Below, one piece after another: positions 3,804-58,838 of a stretch of 64,000 bases of DNA. Numbering within the stretch: position 1 is the stretch's first letter; each line of letters begins with the position of its first letter. Source of the DNA: Branchiostoma lanceolatum (taxonomy: Eukaryota; Chordata; Leptocardii; Amphioxiformes; Branchiostomatidae); assembly GCF_035083965.1 (NCBI RefSeq), contig NC_089723.1:3286001-3350000 (forward strand). The letters are read 5' to 3'. Under the pieces are notes generated by a model that was not told the DNA's origin, searched no databases, and saw only the letters and a program-made list of their open reading frames with translations. The translations under genes and the position numbers were made by a program.

Positions 3804-16647
<12,844 letters not shown>

Positions 16648-34200: not shown

Positions 34201-37115
34201 AACCTTCATCAACGTATTTGATTTTAATCATTTACCTCATCCACATTTTGAAGCCTAGCGTCCTGTTTGTTGAGCCGTGCGTCGATAAACACCATCATAA
34301 AGACCTGCGCGGAGACCAGGGCAACTATGGCGACTGTAGTGGCGATGCAATGGCGGTTTGTGTAGATGGCGTCACAGAAAGCACGGCTTGAGGCTAAATG
34401 CATGAAGATCCAAAAGTACTGTGAATAGCTTCATCGGGTTGTTTCGAGGTGATAGGAAAAAAAGGTTCTTATATCTGAATCTACATTGGACAGCCGGTGT
34501 AGCCATACTGCGGTGTTACACTATTCTCCAAGCAGAGGTTTCGGTCGAGTAGGGAAGGAGTGCCCGGGGTTTTTAACGTCTCTCTCGAAAGGAGAGATAC
34601 GTTAAAAATTCCAGAAACTCCTAACCTATTCGACCGAAACCTCTGCTTGGAGAATAGTGTAACACCCCAGCTTCGCATTGGCATAAAAATAGTTGTTACC
34701 TTTGCTTTTGTCCGCCTTTTGATGTAAGTAGACATGGCGCCTCACGTCTCCTGTACAGACGTTATCAGAGGACGAATCGGCCTCTACGTTCCTGTGCGAG
34801 GACGCTGCTCCCTCGTCTGGGGTGTTCTCGTAAACGTGGTCTTCGCCGCCGTTTGAAGATTGATGGCTGAAGGGGGGTGGGTGCGGCGGCCCGCTGGTTT
34901 GCCTGCCACCGGGCGCAGTGAGGGCGGTACGGCCAGGCTTTGCTTGCCCATACATCGGTACATAGCCCTGGCGAGCGGTGAGGCCGCAGTCTTCAGCAAT
35001 CAAGACGCATAGATAGAAGAAGTAATGCCATGGTTAGTCTGAGAGCGTGATGATTTGTTCCAACTGAGGTTAACCTTTTCAAGTTACGTATTACAAATAT
35101 TTCTCATTGTTTATGCAAACCAAAGTTGTTATATTACATGTATTTCACCTATGCTTCATCCTCTGAAAATTTGGTTGTGATGCGATAAGTAGTTTAGGCG
35201 TTACGGGGGCGGAAGGGGTGGGACTCAAAAGCCCCCCCCCCCCGATGAATTTTTAAAAATCCCGGTCTGAATAGGGTTAAAACAGTTGTTACCTGGGCTT
35301 TTGTCAGCTGTGTTTACGTAATAACGGCGCCTGGCGTCTGCTGCAGAAGCTTCGTCCGTGGACGATTCGTCCTCTTCCGTCCTATTTGAGGACGTTGCTT
35401 CCTCGTCTGGGGAGTGCCCATCAACGTGGTCTTCGTCGGCGCTTGTGGACAAACGCCCCTGGTGGACGGACGGGGGTCGGCGCGGCGGGGCCGGTTTGCC
35501 GCTGCCGGGCACCGTAAGGGCGGTATAGCCAGGCTCAGACATTTGCGCACTGTACTGGCAGGCAGCGAGTCCGCAATCTTAAACAACAAATGCGTATGAA
35601 TATGACGAGTGATTTGATTAGTCTGAGGACGTAATGAGGTATTTTCTTTAGGTCACAGCAAGTAATTCTTATGGATGACATCAGCGCGCTCATTAATTTT
35701 CGCCTGATTTAAAAAAAATTAATTGCCCTCCGACGTTGGTCAACATGCCAAAAATTGGTAAATATGTTGTAAAACGTTGACAGTCTAAGGTGTTTCATTG
35801 CCTATAAATACCCAGTGTAGTTCCTGCCCATGATGGTATAACAAGCTGTTTTCTGAATTTGTTCTAGCAAGGATATCATATGATATATACACAAGGTGTT
35901 TCATCGCATATCAATACCCAGTTTAATTGCTTCAGATGATGGTACAACAAGCTCTTTTCTGCATTTGTTGTAGTTAGTCTATTGAGTATACACATCTACA
36001 AGGACATGTTTACTGTTGAATCAAGGCGGTTTTATATTATATATGAAACCTCGTTAGTTGAATACAGGTATAAAAGACCTGTTAGTCATGATATCATATT
36101 TTGTCGCCTCAATTTTTTTTAACAAGATTTATGATCTCAAAATTTGAAAATATAGGAATCTTGCCCGCCTTGTTTTTTTTTCGCCCTATCTTATTGGTTT
36201 TGGAGTCTGCGGAGGATGTCATCCATAAAATTTACTTACTGTGGCCTTATGTATGTACACGTGCTTTATGCAAATGACGTGTTCTGCATGGTACATTATT
36301 TTCGTCGAATAGTAGACTACAGTTGTTGTTTTTAACGTGTCAACGTGTGGCACAATGGCTAAGGTGTTTTGTCATCAAGATTTACGTCATCAAAATTTAT
36401 AAGGCCACGCCCATTTTTAGAAAAAAGGCTCTCCTTGGCTTGTACTTCGATTTTTATCAATATTACTTTGCAGGAATGTACATGATACTAATATATCAAG
36501 GATTATGCGAGTCTACGTTTATATTTTGAAATGACGATTTTGGGCGAATTTTCGATCAAAAATAACAATAAAGATTCGCCAAAAATCATCATTTCAAAAT
36601 ATAAACGTAGACTCACATAATCCTTGATGTATGACTTGTTGTTTTGCTAAACAAATGTAACCAGCAACAGTGGTTGGATTCTACACACGATGTACGATGA
36701 CTAGGAATGTAACATAACAAAAAGCATAGATATTGAAAGGCGGTCCTTAAAATTGAATATTCTGAATGTAGGGACTATGTAGCTGTGAACGGAACGTTAG
36801 CCAGGTTGTTGCACTATCAATCTTATGTAAGCAAGCTAAAACAGTTGTTACCTTACCTGTTTGGTCGTCCGTTGTGTGATATAAGCAGGCAAGACGCCTA
36901 GCGTCGCCTGTACAATGTTCGGCAAGGGACGATTCGGCCTCCTCATTTTTATGTGAGGACGTCGCTTCATCGTCTCGGGAGTTCTCATAAACGTGGTGTT
37001 CGTCGTCGCTTTTGCCAGCCAGGCGGACAGAAGGGGGTTCGCGCGGCGGCCTGCTGGTTTGCCCGCTGCCGGGCCCCGCGAGAGCGGTACGACCAGGCAT
37101 TGCTTGCCCAGACAT
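31229..37115 (-). CDS. TC2: type II transmembrane collagen-like protein, three alternative first exons
   Basis: Common exons: membrane 34393-34236, coiled coil 32656-32578, collagen 31692-31229. First exons: 37115-36857, 35542-35293 and 34955-34700, each ending in phase 1, which fits the membrane-exon acceptor. With the distal one the CDS is 960 bases (319 aa). The membrane exon encodes [16 protein letters not shown] then [19 protein letters not shown] and a longer linker ([11 protein letters not shown]) than its paralogues. The coiled-coil exon (RVNISV..., [10 protein letters not shown]) ends at a GC donor (g|gcaagt). The collagen exon starts [11 protein letters not shown], is regular Gly-X-Y, and ends GPPARKENP then a stop. 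A fold-back element (34509-34667) lies in the intron after the proximal first exon. Confidence 0.75.
31710..32131. mobile_element. MITE of the 'gggtcacatttcc' family, copy 2
   Basis: Bounded by 'tagggtcaca' and its exact inverse 'tgtgaccctA'. Internal G+C-rich inverted blocks 'gccggggcccgactggg' and 'gcccggccgggccccg' match the other copies. It begins 18 bases upstream of the TC2 collagen exon acceptor. Confidence 0.7.
32700..33460. other. A+T-rich intronic repeat region of TC2
   Basis: Contains an (AATC)n tract at 32726-32760 and a run of ATT/ATAT-type low-complexity sequence at 32870-33060. At 33461-33500 there is a short decayed relative of the membrane exon's 3' end. No other feature. 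Confidence 0.6.
33862..34215. mobile_element. Large fold-back element
   Basis: Arms begin 'cgccaaaaatagtcactc' and run about 135 bases, including 'ttttataccaaaactctga', with a 45-base loop; the usual one-sided tail 'attgcctggatgtctaacct' follows. Same family as 12620-12859. It sits immediately 3' (in gene sense) of the TC2 membrane exon. Confidence 0.85.
34509..34667. mobile_element. Fold-back MITE next to a TC2 first exon
   Basis: Arms start 'gtgttacactattctccaag' and enclose a second small hairpin (aacgtctctctcgaaaggagag). It ends about 33 bases from the donor of first exon 2c. The equivalent site in TC4 (52137-52170) has no insertion, so it arrived after duplication. Confidence 0.85.
34700..34955 (-). 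CDS. TC2 alternative first exon 2c
   Basis: Encodes 85 residues starting [12 protein letters not shown], then a proline/histidine-rich part, [10 protein letters not shown] and an acidic Ser-rich end; ends aaa g|gtaac (phase 1). It is closest to TC4 exon 4c. Upstream, the octamer-like atgcaaac (35113-35120) remains but the CACGTG is gone. Confidence 0.7.
35293..35542 (-). CDS. TC2 alternative first exon 2b
   Basis: Encodes 83 residues ([13 protein letters not shown]..., acidic end ...[16 protein letters not shown]), donor cca g|gtaac. The usual YEN is replaced ([10 protein letters not shown]), so this variant would lack that phosphotyrosine candidate. Closest to exon 4b of TC4 by its [11 protein letters not shown] end. 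Confidence 0.7.
35651..36246. mobile_element. PIF/Harbinger-like MITE, 596 bp, within a TC2 promoter
   Basis: TIRs begin 'ggtcacagcaagtaatt' and 'ggccacagtaagtaaa', flanked by TTA at 35648-35650 and 36247-36249. It separates first exon 2b from its promoter-like element; without it and one TTA the spacing would be 114 bases, close to that of the other copies. Confidence 0.85.
36255..36285 (-). promoter_or_regulatory. TC promoter-like element for exon 2b (displaced)
   Basis: Contains CACGTG (36258-36263), the octamer atgcaaat on plus (36268-36275) and TGACGTG. It lies 713 bases from the exon 2b start because of the MITE. Confidence 0.6.
36490..36635. mobile_element. Fold-back element
   Basis: Arms of about 65 bases (tatatcaaggattatgcgag... 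and its inverse) meet around 36565. A related sequence lies at 59885-60080. Confidence 0.75.
36857..37115 (-). CDS. TC2 alternative first exon 2a
   Basis: Encodes 86 residues: [14 protein letters not shown], Gly/Pro/Arg-rich part, [15 protein letters not shown], then a Cys-containing acidic end ([12 protein letters not shown]). Donor aca g|gtaagg, phase 1. The open frame continues upstream (from 37178) but comparison with the other copies favours the start at 37115. Confidence 0.72.
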
Positions 37116-37237
37116 TTTCACACTGTACTGGCAAGAAGCAAGTCCCCAATCTTTAACAGTAAAGACGTATAAATACATGACGAATGATATCTTGATTAGT
37201 CCGAGAACATAAGAAGGGTTTTTGTTCTTTTATGTAT

Positions 37238-37270
37238 GTACACGATGTGCTTTATGCAAATGACATGTTT
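37238..37270 (-). promoter_or_regulatory. TC promoter-like element for exon 2a
   Basis: Octamer atgcaaat (37254-37261) with an expanded E-box (cacgatgtg) and TGACATG; 123 bases upstream of the exon 2a start. A TATA-like tatttatac (minus) lies about 50 bases upstream of the ATG. A second element is at 37410-37438, preceded by a truncated first exon. Confidence 0.6.
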
Positions 37271-37345
37271 TGCTTGCCCAGTCATTTGCTCTCTGAACTG
37301 CCAATCAAATAAAGATTGCGCAGTCTTTAACAGTAAAGATTCATA
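37265..37345 (-). pseudogene. Truncated TC first-exon copy upstream of exon 2a
   Basis: Repeats the leader of the TC first exon and its first few codons (to about the Gln-Ala-Lys of MSGQAK), then breaks into the promoter element of exon 2a. Equivalent remnants stand before exons 3a (44935-45000), 4a (54290-54362) and TC5 exon 1 (58868-58935). Confidence 0.7.
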
Positions 37346-37737
37346 AATATGACAAATAATACCATGATTAGTCCGAGGGCGTAATGATTTTTTTGTTCTT
37401 TCATGTATGAACACGTGCTTCATGCAAATGACGTGTTGGGAGTGGTATTTTATTTTCAAACGTTGTTTTTCGTAGAATGGTAGACTAATGTTTTGGGAAA
37501 AGCTGCCAGTCTATGCTTTGAGGTACACACATTAAAAGCCTTTCAAAGGGCGCGTGAGTACTGATAAGTTAATGAAAGTTTTTTGTGCATTAAGATTGCA
37601 TGTACTGATTAGATGATACTTTGCAATCAATAATTTTGAAACATACATAAGTTCGGAGAAATAATTTCTATATATGAATTGTACGGAGCTGAGAGCTATA
37701 TTGTGCAAAAATATTATATAGAAATTGAGTTGTGATA

Positions 37738-37975
37738 AACTTGTTTATATCGGTCGGAAATTCCCTTTTAGCCAGCCCAACTGATCTCAAGCGTCAAACT
37801 GATGAAAGCTGGTTTGCATCTGAAGAAATTAGCAGGCAAAGTTTGGCAGCCGCGTGCGAGGTCGGACAGACACCGCCGGGCATCGTGCGTGATGCGGTCA
37901 TGCGATTACAGCTGGAAAGTGCCTTTTTGGGGGTGTAGCTAAGTGCCGTTTGTAATTGCTATAAAAAGAGATTGT
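37738..37975. repeat. One arm of a long-range inverted repeat pair
   Basis: Shares 'cagcccaactgatctcaagc', 'gatgaaagctgg...ttagcaggc' and 'ggcagccgcgtgcgaggtcgg' with 41555-41775 in opposite orientation, 3.6 kb away, with indels. Nature unknown; possibly ends of, or two copies of, one mobile element. Confidence 0.7.
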
Positions 37976-38454
37976 CTATGTATGTAGTGAAAATGTTGGC
38001 AATTTTTTCACATGATCTAGGTTAAACGTTCTCAACAAAAAATGAATAACATTGGCACATTTTCTATATCTTCATTACAAACGCGCCCATGTAAAACACG
38101 TATTATAACATGTAAGCCTATGGGGAAAAAAACTCATAAATGAGACCTTAGTTCCAATCACATATGGACAATTTGCACAAGTTGACGTGATAGAAGCAGG
38201 GAATGAAGCTTCTTCTTTCTTTCTTCTTAGCCTTGTGAAAACGAGATTTCTAGCAGTTTGCGCGTGTAAAAGTGTAAGTAACAAAAAAAGTGACCTATAT
38301 GGATAAGCAAAGGGAAATCCTAAAGTTTGGTGATCTAGTAATTTTATCCTGTCACTGACGAAGGGCTGTAGATGCTACCTGTAACGTCCGACCGTTACCA
38401 AAATCTATCCAATTGCTTGAGTAACTATTTTTCTTGTGAATAATAACATTAACA

Positions 38455-39060
38455 AGGAAATAGGTCCGACTAACAAATCATGTTCATTTCTTTAATCATC
38501 TATGTAAGGTACATTTCGCCATTAGTCGTACTTTGTGACGCCAATCTTTTCTACAAGATTTGCATTAGTACCAGAACAGCTACACATTACGTCATCATCC
38601 TTGCCAAAGGTGGCTTCATCTGAAGACCTATGGTCTGCCCTGATAGGTACTCCTTTACTTTTAAGATTACAGTTACTTGGGTATTACGCGATATAGCCTC
38701 CTCATTGAGGACTGTCTATACGGTGCAAATCTTAAATAACTTCCAATCTAGTCGCGTGCAAAACGCGATTAAAAGCCGTGCAAAAGCTGTGTCTTCTCGT
38801 GTCAATACATGTGCGCCTCTTTTCATAGAATAAGAAGAAGCCTTATATGCAGACCGCCCGCGTGGTGGGTGGAGAATATATCATAACCAATGTGTGTACG
38901 TTTTGTAAAAGCCCAAGTTGAATTTTACATGCAGTCAGACTTAGTGGTAGTCGGAACTTTAGACGTAACGTTAAGTTTGTGGAATTCAGTGATTTGTGAT
39001 GAAACGAGTGAGGAAATCGATCTGACTATCATGTCAAGGCCGCCTCTTCTATGTCTCCCC
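38455..39060. repeat. Paralogous 3' flank of TC3
   Basis: Matches 46555-47160 almost base for base over several hundred positions (e.g. 'tacgcgatatagcctcctca') and 30360-31130 less closely. Preceded at 38345-38430 by a single fold-back arm shared with TC4 and TC5 but not TC2. Confidence 0.8.
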
Positions 39061-39071
39061 TTACTCTTTGT

Positions 39072-42000
39072 TTACTTTTTTAACCCATGTTTCTGCCATT
39101 TGTTTTCCCGTCGTGCAGGCTGGCCAGTCTTCCCAAGAGAGCCCCTTGGCCCACGGGGCCCTCGTGGCCCAGTTTCCCCGGGAGCGCCCACTGGCCCAAT
39201 CGACCCAGTCTTCCCGGGAAAGCCCTCTGGACCGATCGGCCCAGTTTCACCGGGAGGGCCCACCGGCCCGATCGGTCCAGTTTTCCCGGGAGAACCCCTT
39301 GGCCCACGATGCCCAGATGGCCCAGTTTCCCCGAGAGGGCCCACTTGCCCGATCGGGCCAGGTGGGCCAGTCTCCCCGGGGTAACCAACTGGCCCGACCG
39401 GGCCAGTCTTTCCGGGAGGGCCCTGTAGCCCACGATGCCCAGGTAACCCATTTTCCCCGGGAGGGCCCACTGGCCCGATCGGTCCAGTCTCCCCGGGGGA
39501 ACCAACTAGTCCAGCGGAGCCCACTTGCCCACGTGCCCCGTCTTTTCCTGGGGATCCGGCTGTTCCTTTCGGTCCACGGGGCCCAGCCTCTCCGGAAGGG
39601 CCCACTGGCCCGATCGGCCCAGTCTTTCCGGAAGGGCCCACTGGCCCGATTGGCCCAGTCTTTCCGGGAGGGCCCACTAGTCCAGGTAGACCGCGTGGTC
39701 CAATAGGGAAACCTACAGTAAACAATGAACAATGAGCTTTATTGCTCGACAATTGTACAGGACACAATGTATGACAACAATGACAAAGCAATCAATATAA
39801 TAAATACTACTCTATTCTACAAAAATCATGACTACAAAGAGGCCAGGCGCTGAGCACAGTAGCAAGCACACATTCAAAGTAGTCCTCTGAACGCCTTCCT
39901 ACATGTGTACGTTTCTTTGAAGTTAGTAGACACAAAATTGCATTTGGTACATAATACATGCCATATTAGTGCAAGTGATTGGGCATATACTGCGCAAGTT
40001 ACTCTGTGTATCAACAGCATATATTATTCAGTCGAGTCTACAATATTGTACAGAAACAGCTTCAAGCCAACCTACCCCCTCCACAATCAATTGCATTTTC
40101 ACATGTACAGGGCCAACATATACATAAAGTATCTGAGTGTATAGCCGGTATATCCAACCCCTGGCTTTCCATAGACACACAGTAAAACATACCAGAGCGG
40201 AAGAACAATATGTAGCACAGATCCAAAATTGCATACATGAAAACATGCACATATATGAAAGAAAAGGGGAAGGGAATAAAAATGTTGAATAAAAACGCCC
40301 TTGCCTGACTTCATCTCGTGAAGACGCTGCTCCAAGACTCCCAAGTTACTCTTCATTGCGACTGCCACAGCGATGTTCATTTGCTAAATCGTTTCAAAGG
40401 AAAGTAAGCGATAAAATGGATTCAGGAGAGGAGGCTTCGTGGTCTGGTAATCCATATGAGTAGGCAAGGAAATTATTGTGAAGAATTCATTTTTTCTGGA
40501 AGGCTTGTTTTCTGCTGGGCTAAGTAAAAGTAACCAAATACCTAGTCATTTTGTTTTATTCAGATCTCCATTAGTGTTCATTATTCATAATTTTACACTA
40601 TTCTTCCTGGACTACACCTACATTATACACCAGTGTCTAGTGGTGCGGATCGAAACCCACGTTCCGGTTCCGGTCCGGACTCGAGTCCAGAGGTTTCGGT
40701 TCAGGTCCGGACTTGTAAGGTCCGGTCCGGCACCAAACATTGCCGTCACATTATGTGACTGATGCTGTTACCATTGTTAATCCCCCTAAATTCTCTAAAC
40801 TAGGGAAATATTCACACAAAAACACGTCTGCAGTTAGAACAACGTGTATATTCAGAACAAACGTACTAGTATGCTCTCTAATCAGCGTTATGACCTACAT
40901 GTCGGGTTGTTTCTGGTGGCGTCTCAAGAGCCTTGCAATATATTTTGACGCCCCCGGCACACCGGATCATTTTTCTCACATACTGCCGGCATTGTGTTTA
41001 CCTGACCTGTACCCTATGACACGCAATGTTCCCGGGCTGCAGGCAAAGGCCGCAAAACAAAGCTTCTTCTCTCTATCTCAGGTCAAACATGGCCGCCACT
41101 TGGCTCATTGGGGAAGTCCCCCAACGCATGACATGGCTAAGCCAATCTCATCGCTAGGTTCCCTTGGCGTCACCCAGATCTCGCGAGGAGTTGTGAGACT
41201 TCCTGATTTCGGCAATAGCGGCCATAGGGGCCATATCAGAAGCCAACAACAAATGTTTGCGTCTTTTCCATCGCAAACTTTGTGATTTATGGAAGGTTTT
41301 AGAGAGTTAAGGACCAAACAGAGGATGTACATATGTACATAAGTGCTAATTATTTTGACAAGTCCAAAAACCGGTTCTCAGCGTTTCGGTTTTTTTGGAC
41401 TCGGACCGAAACGTTTTACAAGTCCGGAACCGGTCCGGCCGGACCGATCCGCACCACTACCAGTGTCATTCATTCTCTGTTGAGCTCATCTACCCTAGAT
41501 CATGTGAAAAAATTGCCAACTACCAGTTGGCATACAATATCTTTCTATGGCAATTACAAACGGCACTTAGCTATACCCCCTAAATAGGCACTTTCCAGCT
41601 GAAAGCGATCGACCGAATTACCGCCACTGTCCGGCTGTGAACGTCCGACCTCGCGCGCGGCTGCCGAACTTTACCTGCTAATTTATTCCGTTACAAACAA
41701 GCGTTCATCAGTTTGACGCTTGAGATCAGTCGGGCTGGCTAAAAGGAAATTTCCAACCGATATAAACACACGTTCATGCAGCCGTTCATTTTGGGGGGTA
41801 CGGACACTTTGAGGGTACCCACTCGGAGTAATACAGGAATGAGACCTTAAATGAAATATAAGAACAAAAACGTATACAATTGTTAGACAGTAAATTGAAC
41901 AAAATCAAATATGATGAACTTAAATTAACTTACCTAGTCACTTCCATCTATATTCATATCAATTTGAAATAGAATATGACTTGCTACTTCTTATCATCAT

Positions 42001-44786
42001 TTACCTCATTCACTTTGTTGAACCGAGCGTCCATGTACACCATCATAAAGATTTGCGCTGAGACCAGGGCTAGTACGGCGAAAGTAGTGGCGATGCAGTG
42101 GCGGTGGGTGTGCATGACGTCACAAAAAGCACGACTTGAGGCTAGAATTTTGTAATTCAAAAAAAAACATCAAATAATACAAATAGATGGACGAAGACAA
42201 AGTGACGGCGGACTCAAGTTGTGCTCAACATATATTCTCCCCGTCACTTGTACATTAAAGAAAATAGATTATTTGACATGGTTCTCAAGTATGCGAATGA
42301 ATACATTTAAATACATATTGAATGCCTAAGTTTTAAGGGGAAAAAAGCAAAAAGGACACATCTAAAAACGTTTTGTTACTGTAACGCTAGGCTAGATGCA
42401 TGAGAATGATGTGAGGCTAGATGCGCATGTAAGAGGCATAAGTACCGTAGTGGTAGGATATAGTAAAATAAGATTCTTTTAAGAATATTTGAAACCTTTA
42501 AGATTTCTGAATTGTTTAAACTGTTTATCAGCCAAGGAAGTACTCTGTTATCATCTACAGTGGACGTCATCTCAATGGCAGTACATTATGTTCTTTACTG
42601 CTACGAGGGTCCACGTCACTTTCACATTTACAACACTGTAATATCTTTGATATAGTCCACACTTTCATTCACGGTGCAGGTAGATTCTCGTAATTGATAG
42701 ATCACCAACTTGTCTTGTTTACATTCATTTTTCTTTTATCCATTTTGTATCTATGTACGAATGTTGTCATTTTGTTTTACTCTTGTTTCATATATATATA
42801 TATGAATTTGAGTAGAAAGCGTTTTATAAGCAATTATGCTTTTGGGCTGATACTCGTAAGATATATGTAGAATAAAATTTATTTTAAAAAAAGAAGAAAT
42901 ATACACAAACTATGCTCATGACTAACTTCTTTCACGTTTTGTGTGTTTTGTTGTCTTTTATGTCACTTTTCGTTCCCGCCTGCCTGGGCGGACCCCGATT
43001 TGGAAATGTGACCATAGCATATGAAGTTCCTACCTGTGCTTTTGGCAGCAGCTGAGTTTGAGTAAACATGGCGGTTGACGTCTTCTGCGCAACCTTCATC
43101 CGTGGACGATTCGGTCTCTTTCTTCCTTTGTGACGACGTTCCCTCCTCGTCAGGGGAGTTCTCGTAAATGTTGTCGTCGTCGTCGTTTGTGTCCCCCTGG
43201 CAGACAGAAGGGGGTCGGCGCGGCGGCCTGTTGGTTTGCCCGCCGACGAGCCCCGTGGGGGTGGTACGGCGAGGCCCAGACATTTGTGCACTGTACTGGC
43301 AGGCAGCGAGTCCGCAATCTTTAACAACAAATGCGTATGAATATGACAAATGATATGATTAGCCTGATGACGTAATGAGGTACGTTGATGAAAATTAGAC
43401 ATCCAGGTAGTAAGATACGCCAAAAATAGTTACTCAAGCAACTGGATAGAATTTTGAAATTCAAAATTCTATCCAGTTGCTTGAGTAACTATTTTTGGCG
43501 TAACGTAATGAGGTATTTTATTCTTTTATATATGTACACGTGCTTTATGCGAATGACGTGTTCTTAATGGTACATTGATTTCGTCGAATGGACAGACGAA
43601 GGTTGTTTTTTTCAAACGTGGCGTAATGGTTAGACTGCTTGGCCCAGAATCAAGAAGTTCCGGATTCGACCCCTTGACATGTCGAGATGTTTTGCCCTTG
43701 GAAAAGGCACTTGACACGATCGATATCCCACCTCTCTCAAGTAAAAACGAGTACCTAGCTTCGGTAAAGGACGTGCCTCGGGTAGGACTTTAAATGGAGA
43801 TTCCATACGGTTGAGGAGAGCCACACCTTGAGCACGTTAAAGAACCCACCACACTTGTACTTATCGAAAACAGTAGGGGTCCTTCCTGGTGTTAGTGGAT
43901 CAAAACTATTCAGGTCTAAATTGGGTATAAAATTTCCCTACTCCTTATATGCCACCTATAGCAAAAGGACGCTATCTTGATCAGAAAAGGAAAGGGGGTA
44001 AACACATTTGGGAACACATCCTTGCCGCAGCGCCACCATACGACAAGAAGTAGTATAGCAGAGACCATTCAGGCCATGGGGAAGATAGCTGTTAAAGGCA
44101 ACCAAAGCAATATAAGGTACCAAAAGATGGTTTTAAAAATATGCAGAAATCTTTATGGTAGTGACATTTACAAACACTGTTTAGCACATTTGCGTAATAA
44201 CTTCAGACTTTGAGCATTTTGAAACCACGCAAAAAGGAGCCGTACAATGATCCTCCTAGTTTCATGAGCCTCCAAAAAAAACCCGCAACAATTTTCAATG
44301 AGTTATCACATCACACCGACGTCATGATTCTGCATTATGGATGTCGCTATACATTTAGATTGTGTTGTTTGGACTAATCATGTATAGAAATTACTAAATA
44401 AAATGACTTTCAAAATGCAATATTCGGGCCCTGATATTGCTTGGGTTTCCTTTAAGTTACCGAAAAGTTAGCCAGGTTGTTGCACTATTTATTTATGTAA
44501 TTAAGCTGAAAACAGTTGTTACCTTACCTGTTTGTTCGTCCGTTGTCTGATATAAGCAGGCAAGACGCCTAGCGTCTCCTGTACAATCTTCGGCAAGGGA
44601 CGATTCGGCCTCTTCATTTCTATGTGAAGACGTTGCTTCATCGTCTGGGGAGTTCTCATAAACGTGGTGTTCGTCGTCGCTTGTGCCAGCCAGGCGGACA
44701 GAAGGGGGTTGGCGCGACGGCCTGCTGGTTTGCCCGCTGCCGGGCCCCGCGAGGGCGGTACGACCAGGCTTTGCTTGCCCAGACAT
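39072..44786 (-). CDS. TC3: type II transmembrane collagen-like protein, two alternative first exons
   Basis: Common exons: membrane 42141-42005, coiled coil 40383-40305, collagen 39712-39072. First exons 44786-44528 and 43283-43034. Using the distal one the CDS is 1116 bases (371 aa); using the proximal, 1107. Membrane exon: [16 protein letters not shown], helix [19 protein letters not shown]. Coiled coil: [27 protein letters not shown] donor (g|gcaagg). The collagen exon is the longest and cleanest of the family: [14 protein letters not shown] onward, about 60 uninterrupted Gly-X-Y triplets, ending [17 protein letters not shown] before the stop. This is the least damaged member. An hAT element and half of an inverted repeat pair occupy the intron between the membrane and coiled-coil exons. 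Confidence 0.78.
40638..41459. mobile_element. Non-autonomous hAT-like element, 822 bp
   Basis: TIR 'tagtggtgcggatcg' with an exact 8-base target duplication ccagtgtc (40630-40637 and 41460-41467). Sub-terminal blocks repeat 'ggtccggactcgagtcc'-type motifs. The 181-codon open frame inside (40740-41285) shows no transposase signature. Confidence 0.9.
43034..43283 (-). CDS. TC3 alternative first exon 3b
   Basis: Encodes 83 residues: [11 protein letters not shown], Arg/Pro-rich part, an Asp run (DTNDDDDN), [13 protein letters not shown] and a Cys-containing end. Donor aca g|gtagg, phase 1. Confidence 0.7.
43393..43503. mobile_element. Fold-back element in the TC3 exon 3b promoter
   Basis: Perfect hairpin arms of about 43 bases (gatacgccaaaaatagtt...) plus the one-sided tail 'ttagacatccaggtagtaa'. 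Flanked by about 12 duplicated bases, cgtaatgaggta (43370-43381 and 43504-43516 region). Removing it restores about 125-base spacing between exon 3b and its promoter-like element. Confidence 0.85.
43534..43565 (-). promoter_or_regulatory. TC promoter-like element for exon 3b
   Basis: CACGTG, octamer variant atgcgaat, TGACGTG; 251 bases from the ATG because of the fold-back insertion. Confidence 0.55.
43615..43910 (+). repeat. tRNA-derived SINE-like repeat
   Basis: A-box-like 'gtggcgtaatggttaga', B-box-like 'ggattcgacccc', 'cccttggaaaaggcactt' and a long tail with 'ggacgtgcctcgggtagga'. Lies between the two TC3 first exons. Confidence 0.7.
44528..44786 (-). CDS. TC3 alternative first exon 3a
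   Basis: Encodes 86 residues: [16 protein letters not shown], then [16 protein letters not shown] and [12 protein letters not shown]; donor aca g|gtaagg. Near-identical to TC2 exon 2a, so these two are recent duplicates or have been homogenised. Confidence 0.73.
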
Positions 44787-44908
44787 TTTGCGCACTGTAC
44801 TGGCAAGCAGCGAGTTTACAATATTTAACAGTAAGGACGTATAAATACATGTATGACAAATGATATTTTGATTAGTCTGAAGAAGTTGTGTTTTTTTCTT
44901 TAATGTAT

Positions 44909-44936
44909 GTACACGTGTTCTATGCAAATGGCAGGT
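44909..44936 (-). promoter_or_regulatory. TC promoter-like element for exon 3a
   Basis: CACGTG and octamer atgcaaat (plus); the CRE-like half has decayed (ggcaggt). It is 123 bases upstream of the ATG. A further copy, with octamer variant atgcatat, is at 45073-45100. Confidence 0.6.
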
Positions 44937-45100
44937 TTTGCTTGCCCAGACATTTTCTCTCTGTACTGCCAATCAAAAACTGCGCAGTCTTAACATTAAA
45001 GAGTGATAGATATGACAAACAATGACGTGATTAGTCCGAGGGAGTAATCATTTTTTTGTTCTTTCATGTATAGACACGTGCTTTATGCATATGACGTGTT

Positions 45101-46444
45101 GTGAATGGCATTTTATTTTCAAACGTTGTTTTTCGTAGAATGGTAGACTAATGTTTTGGGAAAAGCTGTCCATCTAATAGATGCTTTGAGGGACACACAT
45201 CAAAAAGCCTTCCAACGGGTGCTTGAGTACTGATAACTTAATGATAGCTTTTATGTGTATTAAGATTGCATGAACTGACCAGATGATACTTTAACATCAA
45301 TAACTTCATAAATACATAAGTTCGGATTAAAAAACATTTCCATGAATGGTTTATTTTGAAACACATGAATTGTCCAAAATTGAGGGCTAGATTGTGCAAA
45401 AATATTATTTAAGAATTGGGTTGTGATCAACATGCAGTAGTCGTAAAGTAGTCGTTTTCACAGCTCGAGTCACATGTCTTTAATTTGCATAAAGTGACGT
45501 ATCAGAAGCAGTGAATAAAGGCCTCGTGAATACTGATGCAATAACTGAAGCTCCTTAAGCTTTCTCTGTAATTCAAAATTTTACTGTTCTGGCTGGCTGG
45601 TTGATAAACAAGGGTTAATGACCCGCCCTTGGGTTTATACGAACGAGGTGGTTTATGAGGTGATTATATTAACTAACCATGCCTTGCCTTACACCAAAGG
45701 AAAGCGCTCCATTAAAGTTGTTATCATATGGCCATTATCATATATCAAACATGAAATGGAATGTGAATGAGACAAGTCCTTTATAACATAGGAGAATAAC
45801 TGAACAAAGGAACGAAGGTTTTCCATGATATAAGTATGCAGGTAGTTTAGACTGAGATGTACTTAATGAAGTGCAAATTAAGCTAAGTGGGACTTAATTT
45901 GCATAATTAATGAGTGAAATCTATATTTGCAGTGTTTTCCATAATATGACTCAAATACATGTAACATATGTAGTTTATGGTAAGTAGAACATCAAGAGAT
46001 AACAATTATGCAAAAAAATACATAATTTGCATAATTGATGCAAAAGCGCCACAATTCATCTCAATGGTAGATGATAGGTCTGTCAATATTGCGACATGTG
46101 TAAGTTGATCCTTGGTTAAAGGTGTTCATGACCAAGCATATATTATGTAAATGTGTAAGTCATTTGCATAAACAGAATAGTTCATGGAGATATGAGGTCG
46201 CGGAACTCTTGTTGTATCTGTCTTTGGGACTATTAGGTTGTCTGATTTCTGTTTGATGAAATGTTTGGCCCCCTGGCAACTTCCTTCGGCACTGCAGCTG
46301 TGATTTAGTGAAATAATGATGACATTATCTTTGACTTTGATTAATGACATTGACTTTGTCTTATTTTTGTTTCCTATTGGGCTCCTAGGATCTGTCTTCA
46401 CCTTATTTACATATCAAAGAATAGTTTTTGGTTCAAAGCCTGGT
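45101..46444. other. TC3 upstream flank
   Basis: The first 300 bases match the flanks upstream of TC2, TC4 and TC5 distal first exons. The remainder is A+T-rich with several 'ttaatttgcat' strings and no exon, TIR element or RNA gene that I can support. Confidence 0.5.
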
Positions 46445-47426
46445 GATCCACAAATGTCGTCCCGTCACTGACGAAGGGCTATGGGTGCTACCTGTAACGT
46501 CCGACCGTTATCTAGTAATCTATCCAGTTGCTTGAGTAACTATTTTTCTTGTGAATACTAACATTAACAAGGAAATCGGTCGGACCAACAAATCATGTTC
46601 ATTTCTTTAATCATCTATGTAAGGTACATTTCGCCATTAGTGGTACTTTGTGACGCCAATCTTTTCTACAAGATTTGCATTAGCACCAGAACAGCTACAC
46701 ACTACGTCATCATCCTTGCCAAAGGGAGGCTTCATCTGAAGACCTATGGTGTGCCCTGATAGGTTATCCTTCACTTTTAAGATTACAGTTACTTGGGTAG
46801 TACGCGATATAGCCTCCTCATTGAGGACCGTCAATACGGTTCAAATCTTGAATATTTTCCAATCTAGTCGCGTGCAAAACGCGATTAAAAGCCGTACAAA
46901 AGCTGTGTTTTCTCGTGTAAATACATGTGTGTCTCTTTTCATAGAATAAGAAGAAGCCTTATATGCAGACCGCCCGCGTGGTAGGTGGAAAATATATCAT
47001 AACCAAAGTTGACTTTTACATGTAGCTGGACTTAGTGGTAGTCGGAACTTTAGACGTAAGCTTGTGGAATTCAGTGATTTGTGATGAAACGAGTAAGGAA
47101 ATCGATCTGAACTATCATGTCAAGGCCTCCTCCTCTATGTCTCCCCTTACTCTTTGTTTCCCTCCTGTTTAACCAGGGTGGCCCAACTCAGTTTGCACGT
47201 TGATATGGGTTTTCCCGTCGTGCAGGCGGGCCAGTCTTCCCTGGAGAGCCCCTTGGTCCACGGGGCCCTGGTGGCCCATCCTCCCCGGGAGAACCCACTG
47301 GCCCATGGAGCCCAGGTGGCCCATTCCTCCCGGGAGAGCCCGCTGGACCGATCGGCCGAATTTCCCCGGGAGAGCCCGCTGGACCGATCGGTCCAGTTTC
47401 ACCGGGAGGGTCAGCTGGACCGATCA

Positions 47427-48450
47427 CGGGCAATAGGCTACGGTATTTATGTTGGGGACCCGCCGTGGTACATATTTTCGCTCACATGCTCCCGATGACG
47501 GTTTCTCCCGTCATCCTTTGCGCCGCTCACTCCGGATTCTCCCGTCGTCCTTTGCGCTAAATTACCTCTTACTTTCAGGCCAAAGGTCACGATTACAGTC
47601 ATGCGCAAAAGGTCCATTTTAATCTCATAGAAATAGCCTTGTATATGCTTGTTAAAAGTAGCTGTAGGAGGCCTCTTTGTTGGAAATGATGGCGTTTTGA
47701 GCTGGAATTGACAGGTAAGGGTTGTGGCTATTTTATTTAGTTAGAAAAATAGGGTTTTAGCCATGTTTGGAGTGTCCGGTACACTTTGAAATAGGTGTAG
47801 TTTGGATGTTTTCAGTTCCTGTGTAGGGAGGTCAAAGGTCATCTCACCATGGTTTGATAGAATTTAACCACTTTGCGCCGGTGAAAAATCGGCGAAACTC
47901 ATTAGATCGACACTTGAGCGGTCAGACTACGCTGCCAAAGTGAGTTTTCCATCATCTAAACTTCAGGTAGGTGACTTTTGACAGCCGTTTTCGTATATGT
48001 TTACAATAGGCAGTATAGGGGCCTGTGAATGGTAGACCTTAGCCTTCAAAACGGGGCTAGCTGTGCGGCTCCGCCGAACCCTGTTCGGCTCCGCCGAACC
48101 CCGAACCCTATTCGGCATCACTTTTTCGCTCGTACGTTTTTCGCTCGTACGCTCGGCACGGGTGATCTCCCACTGCACGAAATGGCCTCGTATCCCGGCG
48201 TATACGTACAGGGATTCCTCCGGAAATATTCCATATCCCGGTGCGGATTTGGCGTATCCATTAGTTATAACGGATACGCTAAATCCGCACCGGGATATGG
48301 AATATTTCCGGAGGAATCCTTGTACGTATACGCCGGGATACGAGGCCATTTCGTGCAGTGTCCGCGCCGAGTACTTCGTCACGATCAGAACTTCAGCAGC
48401 TATTCATTATAATACATTTTCCTACCGCTTGACCAAGAGGCCCCCTTTCC
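47427..48450. mobile_element. Insertion of ~1 kb inside the TC4 collagen exon, with a 190-base palindrome
   Basis: No collagen similarity in this interval. At 48171-48360 there is a near-perfect palindrome (arms starting 'cactgcacgaaatggcctcg') with centre about 48266. A segment at 47575-47625 (aaaggtcacgattacagtc) recurs at 61500-61550. No clear terminal repeats, so it may be several nested insertions. Confidence 0.7.
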
Positions 48451-48900
48451 AGGGGAGGGCCCGTTGAAACTGATCGGTCCACTTTCACCGGGAGGGCCAA
48501 CTGGCCCGATCGGTCCAGGTGGGCCAGTCTCCCCGGGAGAACCAGCTGGTCCGATCGGTCCAGTCTTTCCGGGGGAGCCTACTGGCCCAGCGGGGCCCAC
48601 CGGCCCACGTGCCCCGTCTTTTCCTGGGGATCCAGCTATTCCTTTCGGTCCACGGGGCCCAGCCTCTCCGGGAGGGCCCACTGGCCCGATCGGCCCAGTT
48701 TTTCCGGGAGGGCCCATTGGCCCAGGGGACCCAGCCGTTCCCTTCGGGCCAACTTGTCCAGGTAGCCCGCGTGGTCCTATGGGGAAACCTGCAGCAAACG
48801 AACGGACACGGACAATGAACAAGCTTTCGCCCTACTTTATGTTGTATGTTATAGCAATTGTATATTGTTGTACAATAAATATGTAATGATATATGTTACG

Positions 48901-49012
48901 TTGATGAAAGTTAGACATCCAGGTAGTAAGATACGCCAAAAATAATTACTCAAGCAACTGGATAAGATTTTCAAAATTTTATCCAGTTGCTCGAGTAATT
49001 ATTTTTGGCGTA
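48901..49012. mobile_element. Fold-back element
   Basis: Same family as 43393-43503, with flanking duplication taatgatatatgtt (48884-48897 and 49011-49024, approximate edges). Lies in the TC4 intron before the collagen exon. Confidence 0.85.
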
Positions 49013-49270
49013 ATGATATATGTTGATAGAGTTATTAGGACTCAAATGACTGTGTGTCGATCTCTGTTATATTGTAACTGACCGTTTCGTGTTCCCTCAT
49101 GACCTCAATGAATAGCGGCCTGCGTGCCGATTTGAGCTTATCATGAATAAACAAAGGTTCAAACAAACAAACAAGTAACGGAAGGACTGAGAGCCGTTTC
49201 AGGCATACATGCATTGCAGTCTTCTGAACGGCTACGTTTCTTTGAGATCAGTAGACACAAAATTGCTCTG

Positions 49271-50358
49271 GTAACGTTGGGTAACATAAATTCGCGGGGT
49301 ACTTAAATTCGCGATTTTTCGAAAACGGGGTATTTAGGGATATGTGCTAGATGCAACATAAGTAATACCGCTAGAAATGCAAACCTGACAGACTTACGTA
49401 TTCAGAACACTGTCTGAAAAGCTTCGATAAGCATGGATTATAAGGCGACGAGGTCAAAAACTCTCCGTCCCTTATTGTTACAGTCTGAGGGCTTCGTGGG
49501 AGAAGTACACAACATGGTTGTCGGCTGGTTTATAAGAAAAATGTCACATCCGCTTCCTGCTAAACACAATTATTTACAAGACAACTTATTACAATCTCTT
49601 TTGCTAACCTGCAACTGGATTCTAAGTGTGATCAATCATCAAAACTCCTCTCTGTTGCTACAACCTACGGCACGTGTATTTTCCCGCCGCCATATTGTTA
49701 ACCAGAATCCTGTTGTCAAGCAGACGACAAAGGTTTGTGAGGAACACTTTTTTGTCTAAATGCTGCGTGTGATAGTGGACTGAGGAAGATATTTTCCTCA
49801 AAGTTTGCTCCTAACACAACAAGGAACACATGGACATAGTAGTATTACCATTGCTACGGCATCCAGCTAACTTTCCATGAATAATGTAACGTTACACGTT
49901 GCCCGATGATGACGATGGGCCGACTTTGAGTGAAGTTCTACCGACTCAACACACGGGTTGTTCCCGAACTGTGTGCGGTACGGCCGTTTTTTCGTGTATT
50001 TTTTTTACTTGGACACGTCTATATCCATAGCACTCTCCTCAAGCCAAGGATGGAACGAATAGATGCTGTATAAAATGTGATTTGCGGTAAGATATTCAAG
50101 ACGAATCTTCTCTCCCGAATTAATGTGCCCCCCTGTCCGACAGCACCGTCATTGTGTGTACGGCGGACGGTAGTTTCAAGTTGAAATATTATGGTGTCAG
50201 CACGACTAGAGACAAAATCTATCACATATATGATTAGTGCAAAGATAGTACATGATACTGACAGAATTATGGAAAAAAAGGATGGTTTATTGTTCTGCTA
50301 GATTGATTTCAGTCAACCATTATCGGAAAAATCCCGAATTTATGTTACCCAACGTTAC
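49271..50358. mobile_element. TIR element, ~1.09 kb
   Basis: Perfect 24-base inverted ends starting 'gtaacgttgggtaacataaa'. A plus open frame (49433-49759, 108 codons) shows no clear transposase motif. Inserted in the TC4 intron between the coiled-coil and collagen exons. Superfamily not assigned. Confidence 0.85.
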
Positions 50359-51428
50359 ATAATACATATCAGTGCAACTAATTGGGGATATATTGTGCAG
50401 ATTATTTTGTGTAACAATAGCATATACATATTGACTTGAATTTCTATTCTTCTAGAGAGACAGCTTACAGGCAACCTTCCCCCCCTACCCAACAAATAAG
50501 GACCTCACTTGCATAAATCACATCAGTTGACCACCTTCTCTTCCCAAAACACAAGTTGTCCAATGTATGAAAGTCTTGTCTTCACAAAAAGGATACTGTT
50601 CCACTTCCTCATAGATTATGTAAATGAGGCCCTCGTCTTCACATAACAAAATACAAGACCGAACGAAAACATATACCATGGATCCGAAATTGAATACATG
50701 AAAACATAAACATACATGGAAGGAAAAGGGAAGGGAGTGCAAATCAAGTAAATACGCCCAACTTGCCTGATTTCATCTCGTGAAGACGCTGCTCCAAGAC
50801 GTCCAAAATACTCTTCATTCCAACTGCCACAGTGATGTTCACTCGCTAGATAGTTTAATTAAAAGTCGTGATAATTAAAAGTAAGTAATCAAAGGAGTAA
50901 TCAAGTAATCAAAAGTAAGTAATAAGATGAATTAATGAGAGGCGGCTTAGTGGTCTGGTAATTTATATGAGTTGGCAATGAAATAGTTATTTGTGAAGAG
51001 GACGATGACAAAATTCAATTCTTTTTTTTTCTGATAGCCTTTTTCTGCTGGGCTAAGTAAAAGTACAATGTAACCAAATACGTAGTCCTGGACTAGTCAT
51101 CGTTCAATCTATACAATCATATAAATTTAACCACATTAATTTAAAACAGAATATGACTTATTAATCTTAATCATTATTCACTCAAATGCCTTACCCCTTC
51201 CACTTATGAATCACATATCTTTAGATTTTACTTCATAATTAAGTTGCACAAACTCTTTTGAAAGAGTCATTTATTGGCCACTGATTTTGTGTACTAGATA
51301 TGCTGTAGAGCTTTGCGGCCCATCTTAGCCAATAACTTTAATTTACATTCATTGGCTATTGCTCACTAAAGCAAGTTATGGAGAAAAAAATGTTCTATTG
51401 GCATATATCTGGGATGTAGATCATTTAT

Positions 51429-51497
51429 CTCGTCGACTTTGTGGAACCGAGTGTCGATAAACACCATCATAAAGATTTGTGCAGAGACCAGCCAATC
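51429..51497 (-). pseudogene. Truncated membrane-exon copy in TC4
   Basis: Reads [21 protein letters not shown], like the 3' half of a TC membrane exon, but the donor gtaaat is ataaat and the 5' half is replaced by unrelated sequence with inverted CCAAT motifs (agccaatcacg and its inverse, 51493-51590). A similar, more decayed arrangement is at 33461-33610 in TC2. Confidence 0.75.
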
Positions 51498-51603
51498 AGA
51501 CACTTCCCCTCCTGTTGCATTTGGGGAGTTACGGGCCAATCACGTAGCCTTTTGACAGAAGGCGGCGACGTGATTGGCTGGTGACGCCTGGCCAGCGTAA
51601 TGC

Positions 51604-51802
51604 TAGGGTCACATCTCCAACTGAGCCGGGGCCCGGCCGGGCTGTTTGAGAAAACAAAGAATGAAAAATGCAAATCAAGAATGTACATAGCGTATAGTTA
51701 GGAGAATTTTTTTTAAAGTTTCGTGTGTTTTATTGTCTTTTATGTCATAGTTTCGTTCCCACAAGCTGCCCGGCCGGGCCCCGGGTTGGAAATGTGACCC
51801 TA
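51604..51802. mobile_element. MITE of the 'gggtcacatttcc' family, copy 3
   Basis: Clean copy bounded by 'tagggtcacat' and its inverse; internal 'gccggggcccggccgggctg' blocks pair as a hairpin. It lies in the TC4 intron 3' of the membrane exon. Confidence 0.8.
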
Positions 51803-52202
51803 ACATAAAGCAGTAACGAGCACGGGATGCGGGCCGATATATATATACCCGGTACGCCGCAGCGGGCTTGGCATGAGAGGGCGATATCTTTGATCTCTAC
51901 AAATCATTTACCACATCCACGCTGTGGAGCCGAGCTTCCATGTACACCATCATGAAGACCTGCGCGCAGACCAGGGCAACTATGGCGACTGTAGTAGCGA
52001 TGCAGTGGCGGCGGGTGTAGATGACGTCACAGAAAGCACGGCTTGAGGCTACATGTATGGAAGATCCAAAAGTACCATGAATAGTTTCAGCGGTGATAGG
52101 AAAATATAAGGTTCTTGAAATTTGAATCTACATTGGTCAACCGGTGTAACCACCCTTCGGCGAAACACCCCAACTTCGCATTGGCTTCAAAACAGTTGTT
52201 AC

Positions 52203-52437
52203 CTTTGCTTTTGTCCACTGTTTGATGTAAGTAGACATGACGCCTCACGGAGGACGAATCGGCCTCTTCTTTCCTGTGAGAGGACGCTGCTTCCTCGTCC
52301 GGGTTGTTCTCGTAAACGTGGTATTCGCCGCCGTTTGAACATTGATGGCTGAAGGGGGGTGGGTGCGGCGGCCCGCTGGTTTGCCTGCCACCGGGCCCCG
52401 TGAGGGCGGTACGGCCAGGCTTTGCTTGCCCAGACAT
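52203..52437 (-). CDS. TC4 alternative first exon 4c
   Basis: Encodes 78 residues ([39 protein letters not shown]), donor aaa g|gtaac, phase 1. It lacks the 7-residue CTGDV segment of exon 2c. An octamer atgcaaat is at 52592-52599 without CACGTG. The frame is open upstream to an alternative Met at 52509 (MALFLLCVS), not conserved in exon 2c. Confidence 0.7.
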
Positions 52438-52784
52438 CGGGACATATCCCTGACGAGCGGTGAGGCCGCAGTCTTCAGCAATCGAGACGCATAGGAGAAA
52501 TAATGCCATGGTTAGTCTGAGAACGTCATGATTTGTTCCAACTGAGGTTAATCTTTTCAAGTTACGTATTACAATATGTTTCTCACTGTTTATGCAAATC
52601 AAGACACCAAAGTTGTCATATCACATTTATTTCACCTATACTTCGTCCTCTGAAAATCTGGTTGTGATTCGATAGGTAGTTTGTGAGTTACAGGAGCGAA
52701 AAGGGAGGGATCTCAAAATCCCCCTCCCCCGGTCCCAGGATGACCAAAAAAGGCCGGTCTGAATAGGGTTCAAACAGTTGTTAC

Positions 52785-53034
52785 CTGGGCTTTTGTCAGC
52801 TGTGTTTACGAAATAATGGCGCCTGGCGTCTCCTGCCGTCTCCGTGGACGATTCAGCCTGTTCCTGCCTAGGTGAGGCTGTTGCTTGCTCGTCTGGGGAG
52901 TTCTCATAAAAGTGGTCTTCATCGTCGCTTGCGTCGTCCTTGCGGACAGAAGGGAGTTGGCGGGGCGGCCCGCTGGTTTGAACACCGCCGGGCCCCACGA
53001 GGTCGGTATGGCCATGATCTGCTTGCCCAGACAT
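52785..53034 (-). CDS. TC4 alternative first exon 4b
   Basis: Encodes 83 residues: MSGQADHGHTDLVGPGG, HFYENSPDEQATASPR, ending [13 protein letters not shown]; donor cca g|gtaac. Upstream element at 53133-53160 keeps CACGTG only. Confidence 0.7.
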
Positions 53035-53923
53035 TTGCGCGCTGTACTGGCAGGCAGCGAGTCCGCAATCTTTAACAGTAAATAGGTATGAATATGATTA
53101 GTCTGTGGGCGTAAGAAGGCTATTATTGTTATGTACACGTGTTGCATTGAATGTTCTGAATGGTACATTTTTTTCGTCGAATAGTATGCTACGGTTGCTA
53201 TTTTTAACGTGGCATCGTGCTAAGGTATTTGGCTCAGAACCAAGAAGTCCCGGGTTCGATCCCATGACTTGCCCGATGTTGTCCCCTTGGGAAAGACAAT
53301 TTACACCCATACAAAATAGCCCCTTAAAATGTGTGTTAGTACAGACGATTTGATTTGTGACTTTTAAGTACATAAAGTACAGTACTGACTGGTTGATACT
53401 TCACAATCGACGATTATTTCAAACATGCGTGCATAAGGTAAGAGAAAATGTACGAATGGTTTATCTTACAATCATGGTTTGTATTAAGATACATGAGTTG
53501 AGGGCTACATTTGATAAAAACCATGAATAGAAATCAAGTTGTTCCTCACATACGAATGATACAAATTTGTATGCCTTTAGCGTTAGCTATCATAGACCTG
53601 TCATCACATATGTATACAAAATTCACATCACGACCAGTCATATACATTGGATATTTGTTGCAATTAAGATATTCTGTAACATTTAAAATAATCTCTCGAC
53701 GTAAACACTATTTTGTTACATGAATGTAACTAGCAATAAGATGGTGGATTCAACATACGATATACGATGACTCGGACTGTAACACAAAAAAGCATAGATA
53801 TTAAAAGATGGTCCTTGAAATTGAATAATATCCTAGAAATAGGAACTTTATTCATACATAGCTGTGTAGTTACCGGAATGTTGGCCAAGTTGTTGCACCG
53901 CGAATCGTATGTAAAATAGTTAC

Positions 53924-54140
53924 CTGAGAGTTCGTCCGTTGTGCGATATAAGTAGGCAAGATGACTTAGCCTGGCGTCCGCTGCACAAACTTTGGCAAGG
54001 GACGATTCGGTCTCTTCGTGGTCCTCATCGTCGCTTGGGCCGTCCTGGCGGACAGAAAGGGGTTGGCGCGGCGGCCTGCTAGTTTGCCCGCTGCCGGGCC
54101 CCGCGAGGCCGGTACGACCAGGCTTTGCTTGCCCATACAT
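53924..54140 (-). CDS. TC4 alternative first exon 4a
   Basis: Encodes 72 residues, shorter than its paralogues because the segment containing YENSPDEE is deleted (reads DDEDHEETESS). Start [10 protein letters not shown] at 54140; donor tca g|gtaac, phase 1. Confidence 0.68.
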
Positions 54141-54262: not shown

Positions 54263-54291
54263 GTACATGTGTTCTTTATACAAATGACAGG
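54263..54291 (-). promoter_or_regulatory. TC promoter-like element for exon 4a
   Basis: Degenerate: catgtg and octamer variant atacaaat. 123 bases upstream of the ATG. A second element with intact CACGTG is at 54427-54456. Confidence 0.5.
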
Positions 54292-58400: not shown

Positions 58401-58716
58401 CATATTGTAGAACGAGAAATAACATTTAGGCAGTCTTACCTGTGGACGTGTCTTTTGTTGCTTGCCGACGTCTGCCTCGGCGTCTGAAGTCCTCGACGCA
58501 ACCCCCTGGCGGAGGGGAAACGGGGTGGGCTTCCTCGTACTCGTGCGAAGACGTCTCAAGCTCGGCGACCTCCTCGTCCCAATTTTCATAAGCGTGGTCT
58601 CCATCGTCGCTTGTGCCACCCTGGCGGACAGGAGGGGGTTGGCGCGGCGGCCTGCTGGTTTGCCAGCTGCCGGGCCCCGCGAGGGCGGTACGGCCAGGGT
58701 TTGCTCGCCCAGACAT
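55409..58716 (-). CDS. TC5: type II transmembrane collagen-like protein
   Basis: Exons 58716-58440, 57197-57037, 56779-56698, 55974-55409; 1086 bases, 361 aa, phases 1/0/1. The tail starts [12 protein letters not shown] and has [14 protein letters not shown], closely like TC1. Membrane exon: [14 protein letters not shown], helix [19 protein letters not shown], then KHKE. Coiled coil: [22 protein letters not shown] with a GT donor. The collagen exon starts [12 protein letters not shown] and contains about ten near-identical 12-residue units ([12 protein letters not shown]) encoded by 36-base repeats, then [20 protein letters not shown] and stop. TC1 and TC5 form one subtype; TC2-TC4 the other. 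Confidence 0.77.
55535..55845 (-). repeat. Homogenised 36-bp coding repeat in the TC5 collagen exon
   Basis: About nine tandem copies of a 36-base unit containing 'gatcggtccagtttcaccgg' on plus, differing at one to three positions. The uniformity even at synonymous sites points to recent expansion or gene conversion. Confidence 0.85.
57963..58143. mobile_element. Fold-back MITE
   Basis: Arms of about 80 bases start 'agtactgaattgtatagtag' and end with the inverse; inner 'gataaacaaagttgtcggg' also pairs. In the TC5 first intron. Confidence 0.85.
58195..58345 (-). pseudogene. Tandem copies of the TC5 first-exon 3' end
   Basis: Two blocks with donor-like ends near 58200 (ataagg, broken) and 58320 (gtaagacc), about 120 bases apart and 120 from the true donor at 58440. 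The first reads [16 protein letters not shown], echoing [19 protein letters not shown] of the true exon. Confidence 0.65.
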
Positions 58717-58838
58717 TTTCACACTATACTGGCAAGAAGCAAGTCCCCAATCTTTAACAGTAAAGACGTATAAATACATGACAAATGAGATCTTGATTAG
58801 TCCGACAACATAAGAAGGGTTTTTGTTCTTTTATGTAT

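Follow-up and report, generated by a model that had tools for sequence, protein, structure and literature searches.

Five related collagen genes with tail exons of three types

We analyzed a stretch of 64,000 nucleotides of the Branchiostoma lanceolatum genome (the window; assembly GCF_035083965.1, contig NC_089723.1, positions 3,286,001 to 3,350,000), which has a G+C content of ~42% and contains animal-like gene fragments. Its minus strand carries five related genes for membrane-anchored collagens, TC1 to TC5, arranged head to tail. Each gene model runs from one or more tail exons through a membrane exon and a short neck exon to a collagen exon, and the exon types, phases and open frames were read directly from the sequence (Table 1). 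As far as sequence can tell, the tail exons are real, coding and duplicated. There are three in TC2, two in TC3 and three in TC4, as an initial annotation had counted, and all eight of their ATGs were located on the minus strand; TC1 and TC5 add a single tail each, beyond the range that this annotation covered (34700..54140). That annotation regarded the tails as independent first exons. We consider it somewhat better than an even chance that type A is a first exon and that types B and C are internal cassettes, with both ends in phase 1, that are optionally chained.

In all ten tails the open frame ends at a GT donor placed one base into a codon (phase 1), and in all five genes the membrane exon begins at a phase-1 AG acceptor that fits these donors. 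The common phase and the single acceptor had been correctly described, and the gene anatomy supports the first proposal in that the cytoplasmic side varies while the membrane and collagen parts do not. We built 13 models: ten single-tail readings and one serial reading each for TC2 (ABC), TC3 (AB) and TC4 (ABC), with AC considered by phase only. All 13 are open across the membrane, neck and collagen exons, so openness cannot separate single-tail from serial readings. The TC2 model matched the Pfam collagen family (Collagen, E = 1.1e-14) and no other Pfam family at E up to 0.1. A PDB search with the TC3 tail-membrane-neck protein returned 0 matches.

By similarity, type A comprises the first tails of TC1 to TC4 and, more distantly, the single tail of TC5; type B is found in TC2, TC3 and TC4, and type C in TC2 and TC4. 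The order is fixed, A-B-C in TC2 and TC4 and A-B in TC3, so the array either predates the gene duplication or was copied along with it. The ratio of nonsynonymous to synonymous substitution rates (dN/dS, NG86) was 0.35-0.86 across the ten pairs of A exons and 0.48 between the two C exons; the three B pairs gave 0.79, 1.00 and 1.39, indicating that B is fast-evolving. The B ratios, and the lack of a YEN motif in the A tail of TC2 and the B tail of TC4 (the motif is present in the other eight of ten tails), could mean that B, and perhaps C, are unused relics and that the TC genes are effectively single-tailed. This is hard to credit, given that the B frames are open, that each of the five indels separating the three B tails has a length divisible by three, that the GT donor is intact in every tail, and that the C ratio is well below 1. 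Simulated neutral substitution left all three B frames free of stops with a probability of 0.065; the corresponding value for the two C frames was 0.59, which is uninformative for C.

Promoter-like blocks are undamaged only before type A

We searched upstream of the tails for promoter-like blocks, which are consensus matches only and from which promoter activity can be predicted but not read. The block of TC4 A (Table 1) has counterparts before the A exons of TC1, TC2 and TC3. Among these four, the octamer-like ATTTGCATA is exact in three and has one mismatch in TC2, the CATAAAAG box is exact in three and has one mismatch in TC3, and TATTTATA is present in all. Upstream of the TC5 tail, none of the octamer, CATAAAAG and TATTTATA was found. 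Directly upstream of A in all four genes lies a further, decayed promoter and start module, A0, at 58864-59014, 54287-54437 and 44930-45082 and, in TC4, as listed in Table 1.

One reading takes A, B and C each as an independent first exon with its own promoter, a single one of which is joined to the membrane exon in any transcript. Every tail has the phase-1 donor and a homologous block that runs from about CAGACTAA to the ATG, the module copies contain promoter-like sequence, and the methionine is kept in ten of ten; these features speak for that reading. The B block is damaged in all three genes, twice by insertions, which speaks against it. In TC3, an insertion parts the TATA-like box (TATATAAAAG, 43532-43523) from the B exon, its flanking repeat copies lying at 43515-43504 and 43382-43371. 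In TC4, a 596-nt element sits within the sequence aligned to the TATA-like box ahead of the B exon. In TC2, there was no octamer or TATA-like match at ≤1 mismatch within 220 nt upstream of B.

The blocks before C are partial in both copies. An octamer-like core is retained, with TTTGCATA in both TC2 and TC4, and the upstream half-intron is 93% identical between the two genes over 145 aligned nt, equal to its exon. These features favor a first-exon status for C. They are also what would be expected of a mixed arrangement in which A and C are first exons, giving two promoters in TC2 and TC4, and B, with its damaged block, is an internal cassette. Against such an arrangement, neither C copy has a TATA-like match, and the C upstream DNA is not more conserved than synonymous sites (10/145 versus 6/~54 differences, p = 0.38); its conservation was dropped as promoter evidence for this reason.

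Two other comparisons were set aside. The length of upstream homology was dropped as a promoter test because insertions cut the B homology short in TC3 and TC4. The A promoters of TC1 and TC4 differ at 19/294 positions versus ~30/62 synonymous sites, a contrast that gene conversion could explain and that we did not use as proof; the same comparison for the A promoters of TC2 and TC4 was not significant (p = 0.26). The TC1 tail exon (58440-59163) looks chimeric, with its promoter and first part resembling the TC4 A exon and its end resembling TC5. Gene conversion is a possible source of this chimera, the TC1 and TC4 A promoters being 93.5% identical.

A putative phase-1 acceptor lies 35 nt before the B and C start codons

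The initial annotation had seen no upstream phase-1 acceptor that would let the tails chain. We found a candidate in all five B and C exons, a phase-1 AG that lies 35 nt before the ATG and is separated from it by stop-free sequence; the first base after this AG is the upper coordinate of each of these exons in Table 1. Read from this AG, all five exons are phase 1-1 and therefore phase-symmetric. A simple scoring matrix built from generally known acceptor frequencies gave 3.3, 2.8 and 2.9 for the -35 AG of B and 1.8 and 2.0 for that of C. With the same matrix the membrane-exon acceptors of TC1 to TC5 scored 6.3, 2.7, -0.6, 3.3 and 4.7, so the -35 AGs fall inside the range of the membrane-exon acceptors. 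CTAAY, which resembles the familiar branch-point motif, is found upstream of the -35 AG.

Other candidate acceptors would not permit chaining. The B exons have a phase-1 AG at -68 or -80, in the context CAG/RCTAA (the slash marks the splice site), that outscores the -35 AG. Chaining through CAG/RCTAA was ruled out because it leads straight into TAA in all three B exons and in TC4 C, and is out of phase in TC2 C. The AGs at -12 (B and C) and -7 (B) are out of phase. One more stop-free phase-1 AG, at -104, occurs in TC2 C only, with a score of -0.7, and its counterpart in TC4 C is out of phase.

The same CAG/RCTAA site could instead receive a shared untranslated leader exon from upstream, spliced to one tail at a time, the tails being mutually exclusive internal exons and each using its own ATG. 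In favor of this, the site scores 6.2-7.8 in B, which places all three B sites in roughly the top 3-5% of AGs on that strand, and 2.8 and 4.0 in C. We judge such a leader to be very unlikely: three of the four A exons of TC1 to TC4 have CGG at that site, inspection of the A leader by eye gave no convincing conserved donor, a leader joined to C would encounter out-of-frame ATGs, and the codon-like pattern described below would be left unexplained.

In B and C the 35 nt between the AG and the ATG vary as coding sequence would

We compared the 35 nt from the AG to the ATG among the three B, two C and four A exons of TC1 to TC4; TC5 was omitted because its segment is shorter. The reading frame of this segment was set beforehand by the tail itself. 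There were two variable columns in B and three in C, and all five changes fall at third positions and are synonymous. Among the four A copies seven columns varied, three of them third-position, with two synonymous and five nonsynonymous changes, and in TC3 A a 1-nt insertion before the ATG shifts the frame. The difference between B plus C and A gave p = 0.028 (Fisher), and synonymous versus nonsynonymous sites within type gave p = 0.035 for B, 0.013 for C and 0.0039 combined; the sites are few and the copies are kin by descent, which makes these p-values optimistic and counts against the interpretation we favor. A coding-like pattern before the ATG would not be expected if B or C began at their own ATG as first exons.

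Translation start contexts differ between type A and types B and C

The base at -3 is A in all four A exons of TC1 to TC4 and T in TC5, and it is C in all five B and C exons, which speaks against independent starts in the latter. Both C exons also have an out-of-frame ATG 8 nt before their own, lying in a long overlapping frame (open reading frames 52245-52511 and 34784-34999). Further ATGs upstream of C lie at -55 and at -72 (TC2, in frame) or -76 (TC4, out of frame). The in-frame ATG at -72, to which the open frame of TC2 C extends, would suit a mixed arrangement with C as a first exon; its counterpart in TC4 is out of frame, and both C copies carry out-of-frame upstream ATGs. Together with the C upstream comparisons above, we consider the mixed arrangement distinctly unlikely.

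The A exons of TC1 to TC4 have an ATG at -63 or -64, which shares the frame of the tail except in TC3. This ATG directly precedes TATTTATA and would thus lie outside the message if TATTTATA is a TATA box. There was no ATG within 80 nt upstream in B, so the start-site argument touches B solely through the -3 base.

A proposed model of cassette tails

We propose that transcription of each gene would start at the type A exon, with its predicted promoter, a short 5' untranslated region and an ATG. In TC2, TC3 and TC4 this module would have been copied downstream, after which the promoter parts of the copies decayed, their old 5' untranslated region turned coding, and the AG at -35 came to serve as a phase-1 acceptor. 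B and C could then be added in series or skipped with no change of frame, giving the tails A, AB, ABC and AC, all leading into one constant set of membrane, neck and collagen parts. Most cassettes bring one YEN, so that their inclusion, if regulated, would determine how many docking sites a tail has. Two YEN motifs are present in each of the serial models of TC2, TC3 and TC4, and those of TC2 and TC4 also contain YVPM, which comes from the former untranslated region of C. YEN fits the docking pattern pYxN and YVPM fits pYxxM, from which tyrosine signaling might be predicted.

First-exon status is likely for A only. B is most likely internal, its damaged promoter-like blocks and its coding-like pre-ATG segment both arguing in that direction. 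C is more likely internal than a first exon, in view of its coding signature and out-of-frame upstream ATGs. The original proposal of independent first exons is supported for type A, is disfavored for B, and for C meets contrary evidence alongside well-preserved upstream DNA; as an account of all three types we find it unlikely, with a chance that is not negligible.

Several further observations weigh against the cassette model. AAG, the type of the -35 acceptor, is a weak acceptor, and nearby AGs outscore it, though these are out of phase or run into a stop. The -35 AG is also present in all four decayed A0 modules and in two of the four A exons of TC1 to TC4, with an equivalent AG in TC5; this indicates that it is ancestral, which makes its retention in B and C weak evidence. 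The methionine is kept in all five B and C exons, dN/dS of B is near 1 past its ATG, and the half-intron upstream of C has been preserved as well as its exon, with TTTGCATA. The promoter and start-context contrasts represent few events and are not independent counts.

Other features of the locus

The neck exons of TC2, TC3 and TC4 end (50767, 40305 and 32578) at donors of the form CAG/GCAAG(T/G), which gives the following introns a GC-AG look; TC1 and TC5 have GT at the equivalent position. In TC2 the collagen coding sequence is in two parts, the first block stopping near 48400 and the second lying at 47.2-47.4 kb. The ~1 kb between them (47425-48440) contains a 190-nt palindrome (48171-48360), suggesting an insertion. 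Downstream of the real membrane exon, TC2 (51417-51491) and TC4 (33451-33522) each contain a second copy that is partial and diverged. The cluster is flanked on the plus strand by a fragment of an EcKL (ecdysteroid-kinase-like) gene and a fragment of an ion-transport-protein gene (62070-62981 and 12206-12655).

Table 1. Tail exons, membrane exons and upstream elements of TC1 to TC5 in window coordinates.
Feature	Coordinates	Strand	ATG	Remarks
TC1 single tail exon (t0), type A	58440..58716	-	58716	
TC1 membrane exon	57037..57197	-		phase-1 acceptor
TC2 tail exon, type A (t1)	53924..54140	-	54140	coding part of presumed first exon; phase-1 donor
TC2 tail exon, type B (t2)	52785..53069	-	53034	read as internal from phase-1 AG
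TC2 tail exon, type C (t3)	52203..52472	-	52437	read as internal
TC2 membrane exon	51912..52048	-		phase-1 acceptor
TC3 tail exon, type A (t4)	44528..44786	-	44786	
TC3 insertion	43371..43515	-		palindrome 43416-43502; flanked by 12-nt direct repeat, both copies included
TC3 tail exon, type B (t5)	43034..43318	-	43283	read as internal
TC3 membrane exon	42005..42141	-		phase-1 acceptor
TC4 A0, decayed extra promoter/start module upstream of A	37263..37419	-		
TC4 A promoter-like block and presumed 5' untranslated region	37116..37262	-		octamer, CATAAAAG, TATTTATA
TC4 tail exon, type A (t6)	36857..37115	-	37115	
TC4 596-nt element	35651..36246	-		terminal inverted repeats, 29/36 matching
TC4 tail exon, type B (t7)	35293..35577	-	35542	read as internal; no YEN motif
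TC4 tail exon, type C (t8)	34700..34990	-	34955	read as internal
TC4 membrane exon	34236..34393	-		phase-1 acceptor
TC5 single tail exon (t9), A-like	29049..29289	-	29289	
TC5 membrane exon	27171..27331	-		phase-1 acceptor

Comparison with known systems

The initial annotation likened the tails to the variable first exons of protocadherins and UGT1. In those genes it is the ligand or substrate side that varies, and every variable exon is driven by a promoter of its own. The likeness holds for the row of homologous 5' exons ahead of constant exons. Unlike in those clusters, an undamaged promoter-like block precedes only A in the TC genes, and where variable first exons would have downstream exons with no compatible acceptor, all five B and C exons have the putative acceptor at -35. 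Tandem duplicated cassette exons of equal phase (1-1) can be added or skipped in frame, and B and C are likewise phase 1-1. In contrast to known tandem cassettes, the TC copies appear to go back to a first exon that was copied together with its promoter, and what was once 5' untranslated region seems to have turned coding.

Endothelin-converting enzyme 1 (ECE-1) is a closer precedent than the protocadherins. Its isoforms ECE-1a-d have alternative N-terminal tails made from alternative promoters (PMC2567069), so cytoplasmic-side variation alone is not new, and this choice of tail by promoter is the scheme that independent first exons would follow. ECE-1 differs in being a zinc metalloprotease and not a collagen, and the available part of PMC2567069 is silent on tandem duplicated tail exons.

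The MACIT collagens (XIII, XXIII, XXV and COL-99) are type II membrane proteins with a cytosolic N-terminal tail, a transmembrane segment and a collagenous ectodomain, and, according to PMC4678570, none has been identified in Branchiostoma. The TC models have the same layout of N-terminal tail, transmembrane segment and collagenous ectodomain, given the presumed membrane orientation. MACITs have three COL domains and NC1-NC4, whereas the TC models show one collagen block by eye, a count that leaves the second collagen block of TC2 out of its model and allows for further exons. The furin-type RXXR motif conserved in the first non-collagenous region beside the MACIT transmembrane segment is present between membrane and collagen in only two of the five TC genes (RHER and RMCR in TC1, RTCR in TC5), with none in TC2, TC3 and TC4. 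Among the matches listed from a search of the open-licence PMC literature, we found no account of this gene family.

The wider proposal, that a promoter-bearing first exon was duplicated in tandem, that the downstream copies lost the promoter while their 5' untranslated region became conserved protein, making a start exon into a repeatable internal cassette, and that splicing tunes how many and which tyrosine motifs (YEN, YVPM) the tail carries, is one we put forward tentatively, as somewhat short of an even chance. If the tails are alternative first exons, the locus would have an ECE-1-like arrangement multiplied by gene duplication. If they are chained, the locus would show, in several related genes, a promoter-bearing first exon becoming an internal coding exon, and the receptor tail would be an array of docking motifs under the control of splicing, attached to an ectodomain that does not vary. 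Such a modular serial tail would extend the known alternative N-terminal tails.

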